A stretch of DNA of 64,000 nucleotides from Thalassotalea marina (GTDB lineage Bacteria; Pseudomonadota; Gammaproteobacteria; Enterobacterales; Alteromonadaceae), in NCBI RefSeq assembly GCF_014656435.1, contig NZ_BNCK01000001.1, positions 186,001-250,000 of the forward strand, given 5' to 3'. Position numbers and translations under genes: made by a program. This document shows, in pieces, positions 780 to 57,352 of the stretch (the stretch's first letter is position 1; the number at the start of each line of letters is the position of its first letter). The notes under the pieces are model-generated. The model made no database searches. It worked only from the letters and a program-made list of their open reading frames with translations, and was not told the DNA's origin.

Positions 780-1481
780 TTAGTCGTCTTGATCTTGCAT
801 ATAGCGATCTCTAAATCTCTGCGCATGTTTGTTGCTGATAGCTGAAATTCTTGAGCCCACCATACTTGCTACTAATATCGCCAGATAAAACTGCCCACAT
901 ACTGCTTGAAAATAAACAAAAAACTGACTTAACGGCAACGTTGGTGCGATGTCACCAAAGCCCAATGTGGTAAGAGTCACAAAAGAGAAATAAACAAATG
1001 TTGGAAACAATTCAAACCAGTGCTCAGATGACTTTAAGCCTTTAAAAGAGCCAGGAATATTGAGTTCAATTAAGGTGTAGATAAGCGCCCAAATAAGCCC
1101 TAGCAATAAGTACAAACAAATCGCCCCTAGAATCTTATTGCTATCCACCTTGCCAGCTAGCATGACTAACTTGGTTGTTTGAATGGCGGTAAAAATAAAA
1201 AACACCAGTAACAATAATAAATGTGCATATTCTAAATTGACGTTATCAAGCCAATACCCACCCAAGGAAGTTAAAACGATAGCGACAGGAAATATAAAGG
1301 CTTTACGTAAAAACAGCTTTTCGTTTTTAGCTCCCCAAACGATTGATAATAAGGTAATGACGGTTGTTGATTGAACTAGCCGCTGTGCAGAGGGATCAAA
1401 AAACTGTTGAGCGAGTGCAGTGCTCAATAACAAAGTGGTTAAGGCAATCGTTAAATATATAAAATTATCTTTTGTTGTCAT
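780..1481 (-). CDS. Potassium channel family protein (two-TM pore domain)
   Basis: Integral membrane protein of about 233 residues with four or five hydrophobic segments. The pore loop carries TLGFGD at about residues 172-177, the K+ selectivity filter signature of the Ion_trans_2 family, followed by the last membrane helix and a short charged tail. Its likely job is K+ conductance across the inner membrane; no RCK/TrkA-N gating domain is present. An upstream GTG/ATG-type start would extend the frame to 1613. I prefer the ATG at 1481 because the extra 44 residues would cover the NtrC-like sites of the divergent glnK promoter and add an unusual cysteine/arginine-rich leader. Function in this organism is unproven. 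Confidence 0.75.
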   Translation of the reverse strand: MTTKDNFIYLTIALTTLLLSTALAQQFFDPSAQRLVQSTTVITLLSIVWGAKNEKLFLRKAFIFPVAIVLTSLGGYWLDNVNLEYAHLLLLLVFFIFTAIQTTKLVMLAGKVDSNKILGAICLYLLLGLIWALIYTLIELNIPGSFKGLKSSEHWFELFPTFVYFSFVTLTTLGFGDIAPTLPLSQFFVYFQAVCGQFYLAILVASMVGSRISAISNKHAQRFRDRYMQDQDD

Positions 1482-1530
1482 ATCTTGCTCTGCTAACAAT
1501 GGCAATCTACATATCATTAATACAAAGAAT

Positions 1531-1578
1531 TGCACCAAAAGTTTCACCTGCTCAAAAACTATGCACTGTCTTGGTGCG
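1531..1578 (+). promoter_or_regulatory. Putative NtrC enhancer sites for glnK-amtB
   Basis: Bases 1562-1578 read TGCACT-N5-GGTGCG, close to the NtrC dyad TGCACC-N5-GGTGCA. A weaker site, TGCACC-N5-TTTCAC, lies at 1531-1547. Their centres are 31 bp apart, about three helical turns, and fall near -99 and -130 relative to the start predicted from the -24/-12 element, the usual geometry of NtrC enhancers. Sites seen directly; binding by NtrC is inferred. Confidence 0.65.
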
Positions 1579-1642
1579 CTTCTATGGCAAGTATTATCAT
1601 TAATATTAAACAAGATATTGTAAATATTAAACTTTTATTGTT

Positions 1643-1658
1643 TGGCATAGCCATTGAA
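1643..1658 (+). promoter_or_regulatory. Putative sigma-54 promoter of glnK-amtB
   Basis: TGGCATAGCCATTGAA keeps the GG of the -24 element and the correct 10-base spacing, but has GA where the -12 element normally has GC. Predicted start is near 1669, 23 bases before the glnK ATG, leaving room for the AGGGG ribosome-binding site at 1681. The weaker -12 lowers confidence; the upstream NtrC-like sites raise it. Confidence 0.55.
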
Positions 1659-1688
1659 TATTCATTGAAAAATGATAATTAGGGGTAA

Positions 1689-2030
<342 letters not shown>

Positions 2031-2040
2031 GGAGAAAGTC

Positions 2041-3306
2041 ATGGAACAAAATATATTTCATTTACAATACGCTTTAGATACTTTTTATTTTCTAATTTGT
2101 GGTGCTTTAGTCATGTGGATGGCAGCTGGCTTTTCTATGTTAGAGGCTGGTTTAGTTCGTGCAAAAAACACCACTGAAATATTAACAAAGAATATCGCTT
2201 TGTATTCAATATCTTGTATCACCTACTTAGCGTGTGGTTATCAAATAATGTACGGCGGTGGCTATTTCTTATCGGGTATTGAAACGGTAGATGCCAATGC
2301 TGTTTTATCAGAATTTGCTAATCGAGAAGAGGGTTTTACTGGTGGTGCTATCTATTCGAAAGCATCTGATTTTTTCTTTCAGGTGGTCTTTGTCGCCACT
2401 GCGATGTCAATTGTGTCGGGAGCTGTAGCTGAACGTATGAAACTATGGTCATTTCTCGCTTTTACCGTAGTGTTGACTGCATTTATTTACCCGATGGAAG
2501 GTAGTTGGACTTGGGGCGGTGAAGCGGTTTTTGGTTGGTTTACTTTAGCCGATATGGGTTTTTCTGATTTCGCCGGTTCAGGTATTGTTCACTTGGCAGG
2601 TGCATCAGCAGCCCTTGCAGGTGTATTACTGTTAGGTCCTAGAAAAGGGAAATATGGGGCAAATGGCCGTATCAATGCTATTCCTGGAGCAAACTTACCA
2701 CTAGCCACATTAGGAACCTTTGTATTGTGGATGGGTTGGTTTGGCTTTAATGGTGGCTCTGTGTTAAAGCTAGGTGATATCAATAATTCACACTCAGTCG
2801 CTATGGTGTTTTTAAATACCAATGCCGCAGCAGCCGGAGGAGCGGTAGCAGCATTAATTTTAGCTAAAATCTTATTTAAAAAAGCAGATTTAACTATGGC
2901 GTTAAATGGGGCGCTTGCAGGACTTGTGGCAATTACCGCTGAACCATCAACTCCAACAGCGCTGCAAGCGACAGTGTTTGGCGTCTTGGGAGGTTTGTTA
3001 GTGGTATTAGCTATCGTTTCACTTGATAAGTTAAAAATCGATGATCCTGTTGGGGCTATTTCTGTGCATGGTGTCGTTGGTTTTCTAGGATTGTTATTAG
3101 TGCCTATCACTAATGGAAATGCAAGTTTTTCAGGGCAGTTAATTGGCGCAACGACGATATTTGCTTGGGTTTTTATCACCAGTTTAGTGGTATGGTTTTT
3201 ATTAAAAGTAACTATTGGTATTAGAGTAAGTGAAGAAGAAGAGTATGAAGGTGTAGACAAATCAGATTGTGGTTTGGAAGCCTATCCTGAGTTCACTCGA
3301 GGATAA
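2041..3306 (+). CDS. amtB: Ammonium transporter AmtB
   Basis: A 421-residue polytopic protein of the Amt/Rh family with about 11 hydrophobic segments. Family signatures seen are the early WMAAGFSMLEAGLVR, the central DFAGSGIVHLAGASAAL with the pore histidine, and the later SVHGVVGFLG with the second pore histidine. It carries ammonium across the inner membrane. There is no obvious cleaved signal peptide. Most of this subfamily begins, as here, with a short periplasmic stretch before the first helix. It is co-transcribed with glnK, whose product plugs the cytoplasmic pore. The gene ends at a hairpin terminator at 3332. Confidence 0.95.
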   Translation: MEQNIFHLQYALDTFYFLICGALVMWMAAGFSMLEAGLVRAKNTTEILTKNIALYSISCITYLACGYQIMYGGGYFLSGIETVDANAVLSEFANREEGFTGGAIYSKASDFFFQVVFVATAMSIVSGAVAERMKLWSFLAFTVVLTAFIYPMEGSWTWGGEAVFGWFTLADMGFSDFAGSGIVHLAGASAALAGVLLLGPRKGKYGANGRINAIPGANLPLATLGTFVLWMGWFGFNGGSVLKLGDINNSHSVAMVFLNTNAAAAGGAVAALILAKILFKKADLTMALNGALAGLVAITAEPSTPTALQATVFGVLGGLLVVLAIVSLDKLKIDDPVGAISVHGVVGFLGLLLVPITNGNASFSGQLIGATTIFAWVFITSLVVWFLLKVTIGIRVSEEEEYEGVDKSDCGLEAYPEFTRG

Positions 3307-3331
3307 CATAAGACAATAGTTATGCTCTTAA

Positions 3332-3356
3332 GGGAAGCCAAGTGCTTCCCTTTTTT
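3332..3356 (+). terminator. Intrinsic terminator after amtB
   Basis: Arms GGGAAGC (3332-3338) and GCTTCCC (3344-3350) are followed by six T residues. Confidence 0.85.
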
Positions 3357-3470
3357 AATCTGCACATTTTAATTGTCTAAAGAACTGACTGTGCAATTGC
3401 ATATTTCATTAGTACAAATTGTATAAAGTTGTGTAGTATTAATAGATTAGCTTGGATTTGGAATAGGGCG

Positions 3471-4406
3471 ATGGCAAGAGAGCAATTCGGTGTGTGTGCG
3501 GAACCGAGTCTTCATGGTTATTATTTGTTGTTCAATGTATTAGACGATAAAAATGCATTGATTAGGCAGGCGTTATCTAGACTACCCGCGATGTTTGAAA
3601 AGTATGCTGATCGGTTTTCGGAAGCCAATCTAACAGGGGTTATCGCTATTGGTGCAAACTATTGGGATGAGTTTTACCCCAAGGCCAGACCAAAATCATT
3701 ACGCGCTTTCTCAGAAATAAAATGTGATGACCGCATTGCACCTTCAGTAAATTATGATCTTTATATTGAAGTGCGCAGTGATAGAGCTGACGTAAATCAT
3801 ATTGTTGCAGGAAAGGTGTGTGAGTTATTGTCCGGCGGAGTAGAGTTAGTTGAGCAAGTTCGAGGGTTTAGGTTTCTTGATGGTCGAGATTTAACAGGCT
3901 TTGTAGATGGTACAGAAAACCCCAAAGGTAGACACCGACGTGAAGTCGCTTTATTGACGCCAGAGCAAGACGAACAGTTTGCCGCTGGAAGTTATTTACA
4001 TATTCAGCGATATAGACATAACTTAAACCTTTGGAATCGCTTAAAAGTTAAAGAGCAAGAAGATGTAATTGGGCGAACAAAAATCGATAACGAAGAATAT
4101 ACTGCAGAAAATAAACCAGAAACGTCTCATATTAAACGCACTAATTTAAAAGACGCTGAAGGTAACAGTATAGAGATATTAAGGCAAAGCATGCCTTACG
4201 GTGATATGAAAATTCAGGGGTTATTTTTTGTCTCTTATTGCCACTCACCTGAGCCGTTTGAAAATATGCTGAAAAGCATGGTCGAAGAAGACGAACTAGG
4301 TAACTTTGATCACATGCTTAAGTTTACACAGGCAGAAACAGGTGCTTCCTTTTTTGCTCCTAGCCTAAATATCCTAGCTGAGTTAGCTATAACAGAAAAC
4401 CAATAA
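3471..4406 (+). CDS. DyP-type haem peroxidase (YfeX-like)
   Basis: About 311 residues. The sequence opens REQFGVCAEPSLHGYYLLFNV, as in YfeX-type dye-decolourising peroxidases. It contains GFVDGTENP near residue 142, the GxxDG motif with the catalytic aspartate, and RYRHNLNLWNRL near residue 182 with the likely proximal haem histidine. Cytoplasmic by lack of a signal peptide. DyP enzymes use H2O2 to oxidise dyes and porphyrins; the physiological substrate is not known. A start at 3429 is possible but adds 14 residues not seen in the family, while the ATG at 3471 follows an AGGG. No encapsulin gene lies beside it. It ends inside a bidirectional terminator. Confidence 0.88.
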   Translation: MAREQFGVCAEPSLHGYYLLFNVLDDKNALIRQALSRLPAMFEKYADRFSEANLTGVIAIGANYWDEFYPKARPKSLRAFSEIKCDDRIAPSVNYDLYIEVRSDRADVNHIVAGKVCELLSGGVELVEQVRGFRFLDGRDLTGFVDGTENPKGRHRREVALLTPEQDEQFAAGSYLHIQRYRHNLNLWNRLKVKEQEDVIGRTKIDNEEYTAENKPETSHIKRTNLKDAEGNSIEILRQSMPYGDMKIQGLFFVSYCHSPEPFENMLKSMVEEDELGNFDHMLKFTQAETGASFFAPSLNILAELAITENQ

Positions 4407-4431
4407 CTGCATCAAAACAGTTATTGGTTTT
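4396..4431. terminator. Bidirectional terminator overlapping the DyP stop codon
   Basis: AAAACCAATAACTG (4396-4409) and CAGTTATTGGTTTT (4418-4431) form a perfect 14-bp stem with an 8-base loop. It lies between two convergent genes. Confidence 0.8.
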
Positions 4432-4455
4432 ACAACTATCTATTGCAAATGTGAA

Positions 4456-4680
4456 TTAATTTGAACAGTAGTTTTGTAAACATTGATTATAAAGATAATT
4501 AAATAATGGTTCGCTCGAAGCGCATGCTGAAGCCCCCGCTTGACCAGCACACATAACAGCTTGTTCTTGCCTTGCGATTCTCTCACAATCTTCTTCACAT
4601 GTTGTCGCATAAGAAGCGCCAGCCCCTAACAGTAGAGAAAGTGAAAACAAAGTGGATTTTCTGCTTAATAATTTTTTCAT
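4456..4680 (-). CDS. Small secreted six-cysteine protein, unknown function
   Basis: A 74-residue product. A clear signal peptide (KKLLSRK, then a leucine/serine/alanine core ending ASYA) is followed by a mature part of about 48 residues with six cysteines, in the pattern CxxxC...C...C...CxxxxC. An even number of cysteines in an exported peptide suggests three disulfides in the periplasm or outside. I do not recognise the family. It stands alone between a terminator and a 385-base gene-free stretch. The mature part is acidic and alanine/glutamine rich. Alternatives are a periplasmic metal-binding or envelope-stress peptide. The signal peptide and start are well supported; function is not. Confidence 0.65.
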   Translation of the reverse strand: MKKLLSRKSTLFSLSLLLGAGASYATTCEEDCERIARQEQAVMCAGQAGASACASSEPLFNYLYNQCLQNYCSN

Positions 4681-5065
4681 TGTTTATTCCTTAAACTAAA
4701 TTAATTGTCATGGTACATAACTTAACAACTGGCATCTTGCCATAATGGGAGCAAAGTCATGGTGACTCCCAAGTACCACCAACAGCATTTCATTCCCTAA
4801 GTTGTGTGTCAATGAAGAGCTATATACCTATTTTTCCTGAGATATTTCATTGTATTGCTGGTTTTTTAAACATGCTATGCACTTAGGTTATAAATGCGCT
4901 TAAACCATAAGAAGTTTGTTGTTTAGCTAGGAAGTAATTTTGAAAACAGTGACTTATTAGCAATTAATTCACCATTTTTTATCGACATGTATAAATATTC
5001 AAACACGACAGTTTTGTTGATTTCTAGCGGCTTAAAGAAGAAGCTTTATTTGGTTTATTGCTCTC
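4681..5065. other. Gene-free stretch between the six-cysteine gene and argR
   Basis: AT-rich, no convincing gene. It holds the promoter side of the small secreted gene and a weak stem TGGGAG/CTCCCA (4746-4771). A stem GCTCTCT/AGAGAGC with a 3-base loop and T-run (5060-5081) straddles the argR stop codon, but the T-run is on the plus strand, so it is not a normal argR terminator. Confidence 0.4.
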
Positions 5066-52404: not shown

Positions 52405-53724
52405 ATTAGCAACTGGCTTGTTAAAGTAAAAAACTGGTGGCTGCGTAGCGATTTCAGACAGTCGTGTTTAAACACTATGTGTTTAACTATTTCACGAATT
52501 GTCGGCTCTGCCCCTAGTGTTGACGTGTATCTAGCATTGCGCGATCCACACAGTTACTTGCTTGTTCAAGCGATAAATGATCTTTCCATGCGTTACAATG
52601 TCAACTTTAAGCTTTTTCTAGTTTACGAATCAGTACCTGGTTTTACTCTATCACCTAAATTAATGCAGTTTTGGGCATTAAAAGATGCGCAAGAATTGGC
52701 AGCGTATTTTGGATTAAATGCTCAAAGTCAGTATCCTCGCCATCATGGTTTAATTGCAGGTCAACAACTGTGGCAATTAACAGTAAAAGATGTTTCTGGT
52801 GCGTTAGATATTTTTAATCGTGTATGGAGCAACGCTATTGATGAAATTATTCAGCCATCAACTCCAGTCATTAACTTCCAAGTTAAAAATCAACAGCGAT
52901 TATTAAAAAAGGGTCATTATCTGCCAGCTACTTTGCACTTTGCTGGTGTATGGTTCACTGGTGTAGAGCGCTTGAAGTATTTGGAGCAACAATTAACTGC
53001 GCTGAAGTTAAATAAAAATAACCTCGCACAAAGATACGGCACAAAGTCAGGCGATATCTCTGGTCAAATCATGAATATGGATGATTTACCTGTACTCGAA
53101 GTGTATTTATCATTGCGTAGTCCATATTCTTATTTGGGACTGGTCAAAGCACTAAAATTGGCCAATCAATTTCAAATAAAAGTAAAGCTAAAACCTGTTG
53201 TTCCGTTAGTTATGAGAGGATTAAAAGTCCCAATAAGCAAACAGCGCTACACCTATAAAGACGTTTTACGAGAAGCAAAGTCGGCGGGAATACCATTTTC
53301 CTCCTTTAACGAGCCGACTGGCCAAGGTGTTGTAAATTGCTATCAACTTTTTGCCTATGCTGAACTTAAAGGAAAAGCACAAGAGTTAATCGAAAGTGCC
53401 TTTGAGGCGATATACGTAAGAGATTTGGACTTGGCTAGACAATCCGTTGTATTAGATATATGTGAGCAGGTAGGGATTGACTACCAAAAGGCAATGACTT
53501 ACCAAGAGTCACATGACTGGCAACTATGGTCAGAAAAATATTTACGAGAATTGTCTGCTTTAGGCCTTTGGGGCGTGCCCTGTTTTAAACTCAACGATAC
53601 CTGTTGTTGGGGGCAAGATAGACTGTTTATTATTGAAAAAGCACTAATAGATCTAGCTGTTAAGTCACAACATGATTTCAACGCTTTGCAAGTCAACGAG
53701 CAAACTTTAAATCCTCACCTATAA
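52405..53724 (+). CDS. Tandem DsbA/HCCA-isomerase-like protein, possible ATT start
   Basis: A protein with two copies of a thioredoxin-like DsbA-family half. Copy 1 (about residues 15-200 from the ATG at 52477) starts VDVYLALRDPHSYLLV. Copy 2 (about 204-415) starts LEVYLSLRSPYSYLGL and ends GVPCFKLNDTCCWGQDRLF, the C-terminal signature of 2-hydroxychromene-2-carboxylate isomerases. The ATG at 52477 has no ribosome-binding site. The frame stays open upstream with natural-looking sequence (NWLVKVKNWWLRSDFRQ) to an ATT at 52405, 7 bases after GAGGG. There is no ATG, GTG or TTG in that upstream part. I give the longer form. It is probably a glutathione-linked isomerase or disulfide protein of unknown substrate. 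Confidence 0.65.
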   Translation: MSNWLVKVKNWWLRSDFRQSCLNTMCLTISRIVGSAPSVDVYLALRDPHSYLLVQAINDLSMRYNVNFKLFLVYESVPGFTLSPKLMQFWALKDAQELAAYFGLNAQSQYPRHHGLIAGQQLWQLTVKDVSGALDIFNRVWSNAIDEIIQPSTPVINFQVKNQQRLLKKGHYLPATLHFAGVWFTGVERLKYLEQQLTALKLNKNNLAQRYGTKSGDISGQIMNMDDLPVLEVYLSLRSPYSYLGLVKALKLANQFQIKVKLKPVVPLVMRGLKVPISKQRYTYKDVLREAKSAGIPFSSFNEPTGQGVVNCYQLFAYAELKGKAQELIESAFEAIYVRDLDLARQSVVLDICEQVGIDYQKAMTYQESHDWQLWSEKYLRELSALGLWGVPCFKLNDTCCWGQDRLFIIEKALIDLAVKSQHDFNALQVNEQTLNPHL

Positions 53725-53800: not shown

Positions 53801-53855
53801 ACTGTCGTCCCTATTCTAGGTTAGCAGCCCAATCGGCGCTGCTAACTGATCTAGG

Positions 53856-54022
53856 GCCAGAAGAGGTGCGTTAACTAGGTAGTTAATGGGAAGAGATCAA
53901 ACTCTGACGATCATTAACGAGGGAGTATAACGCCGAGGCAATAATGTATTTGATGACGTTATTGTCGGTTGTAGAGGTTGAATCCCTGCAATTGTCACCT
54001 TTTTAGGTGGAGAGCTTCTGGT
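53856..54022 (+). ncRNA. Lysine riboswitch aptamer (L box)
   Basis: The five-helix L-box layout is visible. P1: GCCAGAAG (53856-53863) with CTTCTGGT (54015-54022). The conserved AGAGGTGCG follows at 53862. P2: GTTAATG (53882-53888) with CATTAAC (53912-53918), then GGGAGTATAACGCCGAGGC, the conserved AGTA and GCCGA motifs. P3: CAATAA (53939-53944) with TTATTG (53959-53964). P4: region GTAGAGG/CCCTGC (53971-53989). P5: CACC (53996-53999) with GGTG (54006-54009). Class motifs match the lysine riboswitch as known from lysC and lysine transport genes. It precedes dapD and so should turn the operon down when lysine is high. Confidence 0.9.
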
Positions 54023-54167
54023 CTTTGTCTGCAAACTTGCCAATAAGTTGGTGAGTCAATGTCATGCAAAAGTCCTAAGTTCTCCTTACAACATGAAATT
54101 TGCATCAACCCCAAAATAGTTGGTTGATTGCTGTACGCTTTTTTAAGCGTTGACAAGATCTTGGAGT
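54023..54167 (+). promoter_or_regulatory. Expression platform of the lysine riboswitch
   Basis: The stretch contains CTCC (54082-54085), which could pair with the GGAG before the dapD start, and hairpins ATCAACC/GGTTGAT (54104-54128) and ACGCTT/AAGCGT (54135-54150). A T-run (54139-54144) lies inside the last one. No standard terminator with a T-run directly after it is seen, so control is more likely at translation, but a terminator form is not excluded. Confidence 0.45.
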
Positions 54168-54926
54168 ATGAGAGTAGTGAGTTGGCAAGAAACTTTAGCA
54201 CAATTAGAAGCAGGTACCGTTAGAGCGGCAAACAGAGACGACAATGGTCAGTGGCATGCTAATGTTGAAGTAAAAGAAGCGATTTTAGCGTCGTTTAAAG
54301 CAGGTGAAAATATCGCATTTGACGGTATATACCAAGGCTTTGTAGATAAACATAATTTACCTGCAAGACAATTTGAACCATCTCATGGCGTCAGAATGGT
54401 GCCGGGGGGCTCGTCTGTACGAACTGGTGCATATGTATCGTCAGGTGTCATCATTATGCCACCAGCTTACATCAATGTGGGTGCTTATGTTGATTCAGGC
54501 ACTATGGTTGATAGTCATGCCTTAATTGGTTCTTGTGCGCAAATTGGAAAAAATGTCCATGTTTCGGCTGCTGTTCAAATTGGTGGTGTATTGGAGCCAG
54601 TTGGTGCAAGCCCAGTCATTATAGAAGATGATGCATTTTTAGGTGCTGGCGTCGTTGTTGTTGAAGGTATTGTTGTTCGCAAAGGTGCAGTGTTAGCGCC
54701 AGGTGTTACTTTATCAGCATCGGTTCCTGTATACGACTGTGTGAACCAAGTCATGCTTGAAAAAGGCGCTGATATTCCAGAAAGAGCTGTTGTTGTACCT
54801 GGTACTCGTCCTGTCTCTGGTGATTGGGCACAAGCAAATGGTTTGAATATGGCGTGTGCTTTGATTGTTAAATATCGCGACGAACAAAGCGATGCGTCGT
54901 TAACGCTAGAAACACTATTACGTTAA
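54168..54926 (+). CDS. dapD: Short-form tetrahydrodipicolinate N-succinyltransferase (DapD)
   Basis: 252 residues from the ATG at 54168. The C-terminal two thirds is a left-handed beta helix of hexapeptide repeats: INVGAYVDSGTMVDSHALIGSCAQIGKNVHVSAAVQIGGVLEPVGASPVIIED, as in DapD. It transfers succinyl (or acetyl) to tetrahydrodipicolinate in lysine and diaminopimelate synthesis. E. coli DapD is 274 residues; this lacks part of the N-terminal helical domain. GGAG (54163-54166) is only one base before this ATG, so a GTG at 54177 is a possible true start. It lies behind a lysine riboswitch and 12 bases before the LysA-like gene. Confidence 0.9.
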   Translation: MRVVSWQETLAQLEAGTVRAANRDDNGQWHANVEVKEAILASFKAGENIAFDGIYQGFVDKHNLPARQFEPSHGVRMVPGGSSVRTGAYVSSGVIIMPPAYINVGAYVDSGTMVDSHALIGSCAQIGKNVHVSAAVQIGGVLEPVGASPVIIEDDAFLGAGVVVVEGIVVRKGAVLAPGVTLSASVPVYDCVNQVMLEKGADIPERAVVVPGTRPVSGDWAQANGLNMACALIVKYRDEQSDASLTLETLLR

Positions 54927-54938
54927 TTTGAGGTCGCT

Positions 54939-56183
54939 ATGTCCGCTTATACACCAGCTAACTGGTATCAACAATTTACTGCTAATCAACATTTAGTTGA
55001 CGCGGTTGAGCAACATCAACCTACTAATGAAAATGAATTAGCTTACTTTGTTTATGATCTTGATGCGCTAAAACAACACTTAGATGCACTACAAAAACAA
55101 AGTGTCATTAAGCTGTGGTATGCGGTAAAGGCCAATCCTTTATCGTCTATCATTCAAACGGTTAATGATGCAGGAATACAATTTGATGTTGCCAGTAGTG
55201 GTGAGTTAAATCAGGTGTTGAAGCAAGGCATAGCACCCGAACGCATTTTAAATACTGGCCCTGCCAAATCGAGAGCTCAACTTAAAGAGTTCTTGATTAA
55301 AGGGGTAAATACTTTTGTTGTTGAAAGCCCTAACCAGTTAATTTGGTTAGAGCAAGCAGCAGCGGAACTTGGTTTTAAACCTCAGGTGTTGTTGCGTGTA
55401 CAATTGCAATGGCCAGAAGGTGAGAAAAATCCTTTGGGGGGCAACCAAGTAACTCCATTTGGCATGTCAGTATCTGCTTGGCAAGATATCAAGGTTCATG
55501 ATTATCCTCATTTAGAATTAATAGGCCTACATATTTTCCAGTGGGGCAATATGTTGTCTAATGCAAAAATGTATGATTTGTGGCAGCAAATGATAGAACC
55601 TCTTGTTGGTTTAGCAAACAACATAGGAATGACCCTAAAAGTGCTAGACCTTGGTGGTGGTTTAGGTATTGACTATCTAGAGCAGGATCAAGCACTTTGC
55701 TGGCAAACCATAGTGCATGATCTTGCCGACATTAAAGCCAAAGCCAAGGTTGATGAGTTATGGCTCGAATTAGGCCGATTTGCTGTTGCCTCATGCGGTT
55801 ATTACGTGACAAATGTTGTAGATAAAAAAGCCAACTTTACTCAGCAGCAATTAGTACTTGCTGCAGGTATTAATCACCTGATCCGCCCAGCAATTACCGA
55901 GCAACCTTTTCCAGTGCGAATGGTTAGATATTCAGCTCAAGAGCAGAGTCATTTTGATTTGCACGGCCCGTTGTGCACCAGTATGGATAAACTAGGTCAT
56001 TTACCTTTGCCAACGGATGTTAATGTTGGCGACCAACTGATATTTGGCTATGTAGGGGCGTATGGCTTTACCGAAAGCATGCCGTTTTTCTTATGCCATC
56101 AATTACCTGCAGAGTATATTTTTCAGCAAGGGCAGATGATTGAAAAAAGACCTGCACGATCTGCCGATTGGTATTTAGCCTAA
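54939..56183 (+). CDS. LysA-like PLP-dependent decarboxylase (fold III)
   Basis: A 414-residue alanine-racemase-fold decarboxylase. YAVKANPLS carries the PLP lysine at about residue 64, LDLGGGLGIDY binds phosphate, and LELGRFAVASCGYYV and GPLCTSMDKLG are active-site segments, the last with the dimer cysteine. The substrate region reads GLHIFQWGNML in place of the usual HIGSQ of diaminopimelate decarboxylase. The fit to the lysine riboswitch and dapD suggests decarboxylation of a diaminopimelate-type compound to lysine, but a carboxy-polyamine or other acylated substrate is possible. Ribosome-binding site GAGG, 15 bases before the next gene. Confidence 0.82.
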   Translation: MSAYTPANWYQQFTANQHLVDAVEQHQPTNENELAYFVYDLDALKQHLDALQKQSVIKLWYAVKANPLSSIIQTVNDAGIQFDVASSGELNQVLKQGIAPERILNTGPAKSRAQLKEFLIKGVNTFVVESPNQLIWLEQAAAELGFKPQVLLRVQLQWPEGEKNPLGGNQVTPFGMSVSAWQDIKVHDYPHLELIGLHIFQWGNMLSNAKMYDLWQQMIEPLVGLANNIGMTLKVLDLGGGLGIDYLEQDQALCWQTIVHDLADIKAKAKVDELWLELGRFAVASCGYYVTNVVDKKANFTQQQLVLAAGINHLIRPAITEQPFPVRMVRYSAQEQSHFDLHGPLCTSMDKLGHLPLPTDVNVGDQLIFGYVGAYGFTESMPFFLCHQLPAEYIFQQGQMIEKRPARSADWYLA

Positions 56184-56198
56184 TTTTAAGAGAATTTT

Positions 56199-57326
56199 AT
56201 GACAAATTTTACGAAAGAAGTGATGCATGTTGGTGAAATGGCCAGCGGCGCAGCATTAACCGTACCTGTATACCGTATTAAAGGCGAAACGGGTGGTCGA
56301 AGTGTATATATACAGGCAAATATGCATGGTGCTGAAGTACAAGGTAATGCCGTAATATTTCAATTACTTGAACTACTTAGAGAAATAAAAGTTAACGGTG
56401 ATATTACACTCGTGCCATATGCTAACCCTGTCGGCTGCAACCATAAAAATGGTGAATATACCTTAGGACGATTTGATCCGATCACCGGTGTTAACTGGAA
56501 TCGCATGTATCATTTTGATGCAGATATTATCAAACCTTTTGTTCGTAAAAGCATTGGTCAAGACGATAAAACGATTGAGCAAAACTTCAAGGCATTGATG
56601 ATTAATAGCATCGAAAAGAAACTTGATCACAATAATTATGGCTTAACAACGGGTCAACGTATTGCCTATCAGTTGCAGCGTTTAGCACATCAAGCCGATA
56701 TTGTGCTTGATTTGCACACTGGGCCTATCTCAAGTAAGCACTTGTACTGTCCTGAATATGCACAAGAAAGTGCTTCGTATTTTGATATTCCACATACTTT
56801 ATTAATACCGAATGATTTTGCTGGTGCTTTAGATGAAGCGACCTTTTGTCCTTGGTGGCAATTACAAGAAGCGTTTGCTGAATTAGGCATTAATTTTTCG
56901 ATTAGTGCTGAACACCTAAATAAAGAAAGCTTTACGGTAGAATTGGGCTCTCAAGAGCAGATTGACTTAGATGTGGCATTAGAAGATGCAAAAAGTATTT
57001 TAAGTTACTTATCTTATAAAGGGGTGATTGACTCAAATGATTTTCAACCACAGTCAATGACTCGATACGCGTGTTATTTAAAAGACTATAAAGCGTATTA
57101 CTCCCCGATGGGCGGCATGGTAGATTATTTAGCAGAATTTGGTGAACCGTTAGCACCAGGTGAGCCATTGGCAAGAATTCTGCGCATGGATAATTATGGT
57201 GACGGTGAACCGCTACACTATTTATCGCTTGAAGAACCCGTGATCCCAATACTGCACTTTGCTTCGGCTAGTGTAAATCAGGGAACTGAGCTCTATAAAG
57301 TCTTTGCCAATTACTTTACGCTGTAA
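56199..57326 (+). CDS. M14-family deacylase (AstE/AspA-like succinyl-amino acid desuccinylase)
   Basis: A 375-residue zinc carboxypeptidase-like protein. The motif ANMHGAEVQGN near residues 41-51 supplies the first Zn histidine and glutamate, and VLDLHTGP near residue 170 the second histidine; the acid-base glutamate is likely in FTVELGSQEQ. It is in the succinylglutamate desuccinylase/aspartoacylase family. Standard bacteria remove succinyl from N-succinyl-diaminopimelate with DapE, an unrelated M20 enzyme. Its place after dapD and a LysA-like gene, under a lysine riboswitch, suggests it does the same job. No close assignment is certain. Confidence 0.8.
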   Translation: MTNFTKEVMHVGEMASGAALTVPVYRIKGETGGRSVYIQANMHGAEVQGNAVIFQLLELLREIKVNGDITLVPYANPVGCNHKNGEYTLGRFDPITGVNWNRMYHFDADIIKPFVRKSIGQDDKTIEQNFKALMINSIEKKLDHNNYGLTTGQRIAYQLQRLAHQADIVLDLHTGPISSKHLYCPEYAQESASYFDIPHTLLIPNDFAGALDEATFCPWWQLQEAFAELGINFSISAEHLNKESFTVELGSQEQIDLDVALEDAKSILSYLSYKGVIDSNDFQPQSMTRYACYLKDYKAYYSPMGGMVDYLAEFGEPLAPGEPLARILRMDNYGDGEPLHYLSLEEPVIPILHFASASVNQGTELYKVFANYFTL

Positions 57327-57352
57327 AAAAAACGCCCATTAGGGCGTTTATT
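57324..57352. terminator. Bidirectional terminator after the lysine operon
   Basis: AACGCCC (57331-57337) and GGGCGTT (57342-57348) with a 4-base loop, an A-run before it and T-rich sequence after it. On the minus strand it ends the darP transcript. Confidence 0.85.

Follow-up and report, generated by a model that had tools for sequence, protein, structure and literature searches.

A conserved lysine-riboswitch operon in Thalassotalea marina and its relatives, very probably accessory to the standard lysine genes, that may make lysine through capped intermediates

In bacteria with a diaminopimelate (DAP) pathway, lysine is made by the same route as meso-DAP, a component of the wall, so that shutting down lysine synthesis puts the cell wall at risk. 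Closest to the locus described here is the succinylase branch of that route (DapD, DapC/ArgD, DapE, DapF, and LysA), with which it has in common the DapD and LysA families, a predicted N-acyl intermediate, a zinc deacylase, and control by a lysine riboswitch. In its accessible portion, a 2017 study (PMC5584792) lists a Pseudoalteromonas riboswitch operon with the order dapA-dapD-lysA-hypothetical1-hypothetical2, and for Colwellia psychrerythraea a riboswitch in front of dapD; that portion names neither paralogues nor a deacylase. Here, we analyzed a stretch of 64,000 nucleotides from Thalassotalea marina (assembly GCF_014656435.1, contig NZ_BNCK01000001.1, positions 186,001 to 250,000 of the forward strand; hereafter, the window), which contains a riboswitch followed by three genes, whose products we call DapD', LysA', and M14. 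We conclude that this is, very probably, a conserved accessory lysine operon. The first-pass annotation of the window knew of no published account of the trio, a statement overtaken by the 2017 listing with its two hypothetical genes.

The genome containing the window comprises 4.87 Mb in 31 contigs. The sole Rfam match above gathering score in the window is a full lysine riboswitch, and behind it lie three genes on the same strand, separated by 12 bases (dapD'-lysA') and 15 bases (lysA'-M14). The first-pass annotation had read these as a short DapD, a LysA-like decarboxylase, and an AstE/AspA-type deacylase, and the riboswitch score, the open reading frames (ORFs), and the family scores all agree with it. 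The features are as follows:

53853-54025, + strand: lysine riboswitch aptamer RF00168, complete (model positions 1-182; cmscan 95.6 bits, E 4.8e-24, gathering score 30)
54009-54085, + strand: possible expression platform, predicted from the minimum-energy fold
54168-54926, + strand: dapD', divergent tetrahydrodipicolinate N-acyltransferase (NF008808 match; a TTG start at 54150 is also open)
54939-56183, + strand: lysA', fold-III pyridoxal phosphate (PLP) decarboxylase (Pfam PF02784/PF00278)
56199-57326, + strand: M14 AstE/AspA-type zinc deacylase (PF24827)
57330-57349, both strands: terminator-like stem behind the operon (pattern scan)

The longest ORF for dapD' runs from the TTG at 54150 to 54926. 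The ATG at 54168 (252 aa), with TTGGAG just upstream, is the more likely start; dapD' ORFs are 246-250 aa long in 10 of 12 relatives, and the remaining two open further upstream. The operon in the window has no dapF, dapE, or aminotransferase gene.

How widely the trio occurs had been left by the first-pass annotation to a search of other genomes. In our scan for LysA', with one genome per species, we took the best 80 of 161 relatives; these loci were found through LysA' alone, and all 80 carry DapD', LysA', and M14 in order and on one strand; the recurrence of an identical gene order in loci found in this way is more than chance would give. These loci belong to Colwellia, Thalassotalea, Pseudoalteromonas, and their kin, some with titles that go no lower than family, order, or class. 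A riboswitch precedes the operon in 78 of them (nhmmer), and the other two, both from Colwellia (L085 and L089), keep the trio and show no lysine riboswitch with nhmmer or Rfam. In front of the trio, 58 of the 80 loci have a dapA' gene, accompanied in two cases by lysC, and examples of both partners were confirmed by Pfam. Together, the riboswitch and the dapA and lysC partners in relatives support the view of the operon as a lysine-controlled accessory branch of lysine synthesis, one of the two roles that the first-pass annotation had considered. In L077 the DapD' gene, and in L095 the M14 gene, is broken into two ORFs, perhaps through sequencing error or decay, and M14 of L117 is cut at a contig end.

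At the level of the order, DapD' and LysA' share the same 16 of 295 genomes, and M14 is found in 15 of these 16; the genome without it is 80% complete. In one locus (L206 of genome G062, 1002-4857), a short dapB, DapD', LysA', and a divergent M14 stand in one run, with no riboswitch found there. Outside the order, three further genomes with LysA' (E <= 1e-65) were recovered among 369 of the class; they are from one genus, are 2.0-2.1 Mb in size, and have the run lysC-dapB (short)-dapA-DapD'-LysA' (L211 in G504, L212 in G366, and L213 in G608). A class I/II aminotransferase gene lies near the run in all three (beyond asd in L211, directly after LysA' in L212, and before lysC in L213), and would supply a step missing from the operon in the window. 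An amino acid permease gene follows in L213, and asd occurs in L211 only.

The operon does not stand in for the ordinary genes. The host encodes a standard DapD (489 bits), two DapE proteins (555 and 409 bits), and two LysA proteins above cut-off (543 and 486 bits); the 543-bit lysA is followed by a gene that we read, without a family search, as dapF, and a second lysine riboswitch precedes a lysC-like gene. Thirteen of 59 relatives, the host included, carry both DapD' and LysA', and in each of these standard dapD, lysA, and dapE score above the respective cut-offs. Among 11 further genomes with the pair, dapE exceeds its cut-off in 10 (the miss is G062), as does lysA (the miss is G126, an assembly in ~450 contigs that has no standard lysA above cut-off). 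The genomes of L211-L213 each have a standard lysA above cut-off with a CES motif, bringing the totals for the tested genomes with DapD' and LysA' to 26/27 for lysA, 23/24 for dapE, and 13/13 for dapD. As the standard genes co-exist with it, LysA' is an addition and not a substitute, and the other role considered earlier, that of a compact, sole pathway, is ruled out by the standard dapD, dapE, and lysA in the host. The presence of these three genes had itself been named by the first-pass annotation as one half of what would count against its pathway. Likewise, its suggestion that M14 replaces a missing DapE is not supported, given the 555-bit dapE, and the residues discussed below suggest that decarboxylation comes first and deacylation last. 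G062 (92% complete, 5% contamination) has no M20-family dapE at E 1e-60; we did not use it as proof of such a replacement, as G037, from the same genus, has dapE.

With respect to control, the 3' side of the P1 helix of the aptamer, GGAGAGCTT (54009-54017), pairs with AAGTTCTCC (54077-54085) in the minimum-energy fold of 53850-54190 (z -3.34). It is possible that this pairing would compete with P1, and hence with the lysine-bound form. A strict regular expression recovered a similar element from 48 of the 118 riboswitch loci, the remaining 70 having none or a different one; of the 19 loci that failed the P1 expression, 11 were run through Rfam and all 11 scored above the gathering score. Since the pattern scan gave no terminator between the aptamer and dapD', translational control would be the likelier mode. 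According to the accessible part of PMC5584792, the E. coli lysC riboswitch acts on translation and mRNA decay and is off with lysine, and we infer the same direction for the riboswitch in the window. Lysine riboswitches of Shewanella govern genes of biosynthesis or uptake, and the accessible main text of the study reporting them (PMC3223726) includes neither lysC nor a desuccinylase.

The identity of LysA' carries most of the argument about chemistry. It scores below the cut-off of the lysA model TIGR01048 (198.7 vs 297.9 bits), and reaches only 59 against a cut-off of 500 with the FslC-type acyl amino acid decarboxylase model. In a 24-row tree with some long branches, a clade of 15 LysA' rows (100/100) stands separate from one of 7 standard LysA rows (100/100). 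According to the accessible portion of PMC8277567, the DAP decarboxylase of T. maritima binds the distal carboxylate of DAP through Arg249 and Arg285 and the distal amino group through Glu315; its E315T variant lost most activity on DAP and gained activity on 2-aminopimelate, which has no distal amino group, while still preferring the D center. By sequence alignment with that enzyme, the PLP lysine (K64), the cysteine of the C-x-S motif (C346), and the arginine pair for the distal carboxylate (R280 and R316) are present in all 106 rows of LysA' (95 distinct sequences, some genomes having been entered twice). In the same 106 rows, Thr347 replaces the distal-amine glutamate, the tyrosine of RPxxY is Thr or Ser, and the PLP-stacking histidine is Phe; glycine stands where the standard enzyme has its phosphate-binding serine. 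The glutamate is found in 7/7 standard LysA proteins compared; both of those in the host keep it, as does the standard LysA of each of the three small genomes. The simplest substrate with a distal carboxylate and no free distal amine, given an acyltransferase and a deacylase in the same operon, would be an N-acyl-DAP. An AlphaFold model of LysA' (mean pLDDT 83) shows a roughly equal match to structures of LysA and of SbnH, Foldseek ranking SbnH fourth behind LysA structures; we drew no pocket detail from it, as confidence is low near the site, at 317-319 and 376-383.

DapD' matches NF008808 (299 bits; cut-off 204) and falls below the succinyl-type dapD model TIGR00965 (196.8 vs 375.4), and its relatives in the Protein Data Bank (PDB) are DapD structures. 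It keeps Asp115, the equivalent of Asp141 of standard DapD. Compared with five standard DapD proteins, Arg187 is replaced by Gly161 and Glu189 by Val or Ile163 in 105/105 full-length rows, one split row having been dropped. These two residues belong to the GARSE site, which is intact in 5/5 PDB DapD alignments and lost in DapD'. We take the roles of Asp141 and Glu189 to be those usually given for the standard enzyme, with Glu189 catalytic. Since both the Arg and the Glu of the succinyl-type site are gone from DapD', an acetyl cap is conceivable; the acyl group is possibly succinyl or acetyl. Ser203, which is Ala in 105/105 DapD' rows, was dropped as an argument, because Ala or Gly occurs there in two of the five PDB DapD chains. 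In the accessible part of PMC3281039, PaDapD binds the succinyl carboxylate through Arg223 and Ser241, in a numbering that could not be mapped onto the DapD' type.

Taken with the operon's context, these changes lead us to put forward, as a tentative reading to which we give nearly even weight, a route in which the acyl group is kept through decarboxylation and removed last by M14, giving lysine without DapE, DapF, or meso-DAP. The operon would make extra lysine under lysine shortage and be repressed by lysine. DapD' would acylate tetrahydrodipicolinate with a succinyl or acetyl group; a host aminotransferase encoded elsewhere would convert the product to N-acyl-L,L-DAP; LysA' would decarboxylate the still-capped compound at its free end, yielding N2-acyl-L-lysine; and M14 would take off the cap to give L-lysine. 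As flux would pass around DapE, DapF, and meso-DAP, this lysine supply could be shut without starving the cell wall. The fuller version, a riboswitch-gated route with a cap that is possibly acetyl and with lysine supply insulated from wall DAP, is a more speculative possibility, held with somewhat less confidence. If true, the branch would be a neat way to separate lysine from wall DAP supply, and would include a new enzyme activity, acyl-DAP decarboxylase.

M14 itself matches the AstE/AspA-type family PF24827 at 102 bits (cut-off 25), and its Pfam and NCBIfam matches include neither an M20 nor a dapE family; the host dapE lies elsewhere in the genome. The window copy is nearest to M14 of Thalassotalea and Colwellia, and H43, E46, R91, N101, R102, H173, and E248 are kept in all 117 distinct rows with a length of 330 aa or more. 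The zinc-binding and catalytic roles of these seven residues are presumably those of their AspA/AstE counterparts. To survey M14 beyond the trio, 50 more loci were picked by M14 matches: 22 have the trio (20 with a riboswitch), 19 have riboswitch-lysC-M14, one has riboswitch-dapA-M14, and eight have M14 without the other genes. The last group consists of seven inspected loci with more distant copies, together with M14 of G016, and none of these adjoins a gene matched by our five models. Thirteen alignment columns separate M14 of the trio from the lysC type; at position 177, four residues past a zinc-binding histidine, Ile is found in 86/88 trio sequences and Lys in 18/19 of the lysC type. Ile177 hints at a trio substrate without a side-chain carboxylate, which it would fit.

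Several observations weigh against the capped route. First, M14 also occurs apart from LysA': of the 295 genomes in the order, 48 contain a strong M14 (E below 1e-90), and 33 of these 48 lack the DapD'-LysA' pair. The 19 riboswitch-lysC-M14 loci (L186-L203 and L055) are in genomes without DapD' or LysA', and 18 of them belong to one family, which we take to be Shewanellaceae. Similarly, G007 has riboswitch-dapA-M14 and no DapD', LysA' not having been sought there with its own model. Such loci favor a different explanation, the reading of the first-pass annotation, possible though rather doubtful, in which the trio are lysine-regulated isozymes of the ordinary pathway: DapD' would be a DapD, M14 a non-homologous DapE, and LysA' a meso-DAP decarboxylase, with DapF and the aminotransferase shared. 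The enzymes are of the same broad families and sit in the same context, and M14 in the 19 lysC loci would most naturally act on N-succinyl-L,L-DAP as its N-acyl substrate. What this explanation leaves unaccounted for is the loss from LysA', in 106/106 rows, of the very Glu whose exchange for Thr cripples a DAP decarboxylase (PMC8277567, accessible portion), and which standard LysA proteins retain.

The remaining difficulties concern single genes and residues. The L211-L213 runs are without M14, so that another deacylase would be needed there; the rest of these genomes was not searched for M14, dapE, or dapD. At position 177, the G062 trio breaks the pattern with Arg and the dapA-M14 genome with Ile, and, as M14 of the lysC type is one clade, descent alone could explain the split between Ile177 and Lys177. 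The free end of N-acyl-L,L-DAP is L, and DAP decarboxylases use a D center, a preference that E315T kept (PMC8277567, as far as accessible), so that LysA' would need a different stereochemistry. Finally, another LysA-like paralogue in the host also has Thr at the Glu site, and Thr therefore indicates that contact with the amine has been lost, without pointing to a particular substrate. A further LysA-like decarboxylase of the host (L067, G000:C3:94959-96191) has a CT motif, lacks the second Arg, and resembles an exosortase-associated type; its neighbor was read as AMP-ligase-like.

In another scheme, M14 acts first to give L,L-DAP, which LysA' then decarboxylates directly, only DapF being by-passed. 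Near the cofactor, Phe in place of the stacking His and Gly in place of the phosphate-binding Ser could fit an L-specific enzyme. However, L,L-DAP and meso-DAP share a free distal amino group, which leaves the loss of Glu unexplained, and we regard this scheme as quite unlikely. A shade less probable again, and thus very unlikely in our view, is that the operon makes another compound off the DAP branch, as in tabtoxin synthesis, which, according to the accessible portion of PMC3927611, uses the DapD-like TabB together with TabA, a LysA-like protein unable to complement an E. coli lysA mutant. The lysine riboswitch and the dapA, lysC, and dapB partners argue against such a product, as does the absence of shared tailoring genes recognized by eye in the ORF lists, the flanks not having been searched by family.

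Two features flank the operon in the window. Directly upstream, 52477-53724 encodes a 415-aa protein whose second half contains a DSBA-like domain; a homologue of this protein is found in 8/20 loci inspected. As for the terminator-like stem at 57330-57349, the pattern scan gave five sites in the scanned region against 3.5 expected from shuffles, and the stem by itself is no evidence of function.

Among the matches listed from the open-licence literature (titles and abstract openings), we found no account of an acyl-DAP decarboxylase, and the trio only in the 2017 listing of PMC5584792. The operon is thus already listed there, and we did not find its proposed chemistry described. The Pseudoalteromonas operon of that study has the gene order of our Pseudoalteromonas loci and is very likely the same operon; its accessible portion gives no function for the hypothetical genes and places their origin in Pseudoalteromonas, whereas our set adds Colwellia, Thalassotalea, and others. 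In contrast to the succinylase branch, the operon described here consists of paralogues beside a standard set, its deacylase is of the AstE/AspA type and not an M20 DapE, its LysA' lacks the distal-amine Glu, and dapF, dapE, and an aminotransferase gene are absent from it in the window. That NCBIfam names DapD' an ordinary succinyltransferase is a warning for annotation.

Tabtoxin TabB, TabA, and TabD resemble our trio as DapD-like and LysA-like enzymes branching off the DAP pathway, with TabA no replacement for LysA (PMC3927611, accessible portion); theirs is a secondary metabolite cluster, and the likeness drawn here is one of description. The nearest M14 structures, 3fmc and 3lwu, were named by their depositors as (putative) succinylglutamate desuccinylase/aspartoacylase; for 8ein/8eip, the nearest others, we found no substrate in the literature. 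M14 (375 aa) aligns over its full length with the 3fmc and 3lwu chains of 368 and 391 residues and keeps the catalytic set. Those names were given by family, however, whilst the context of M14 is lysine and not arginine breakdown, and both structures carry the lysC-type Lys at position 177. The proposed route, if true, would provide a functional lead for them. LysA' also has likenesses among FigC/FslC and SbnH of siderophore synthesis, PLP enzymes of fold III whose amino acid substrates carry an acyl group on the other amine; the accessible part of PMC7857480 reports that FigC and SbnH, which share the fold, act on N-acylated L-amino acids, and they are thus precedents for the step proposed for LysA'. 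Their caps are citryl, whereas LysA' retains the Arg pair for a distal carboxylate.

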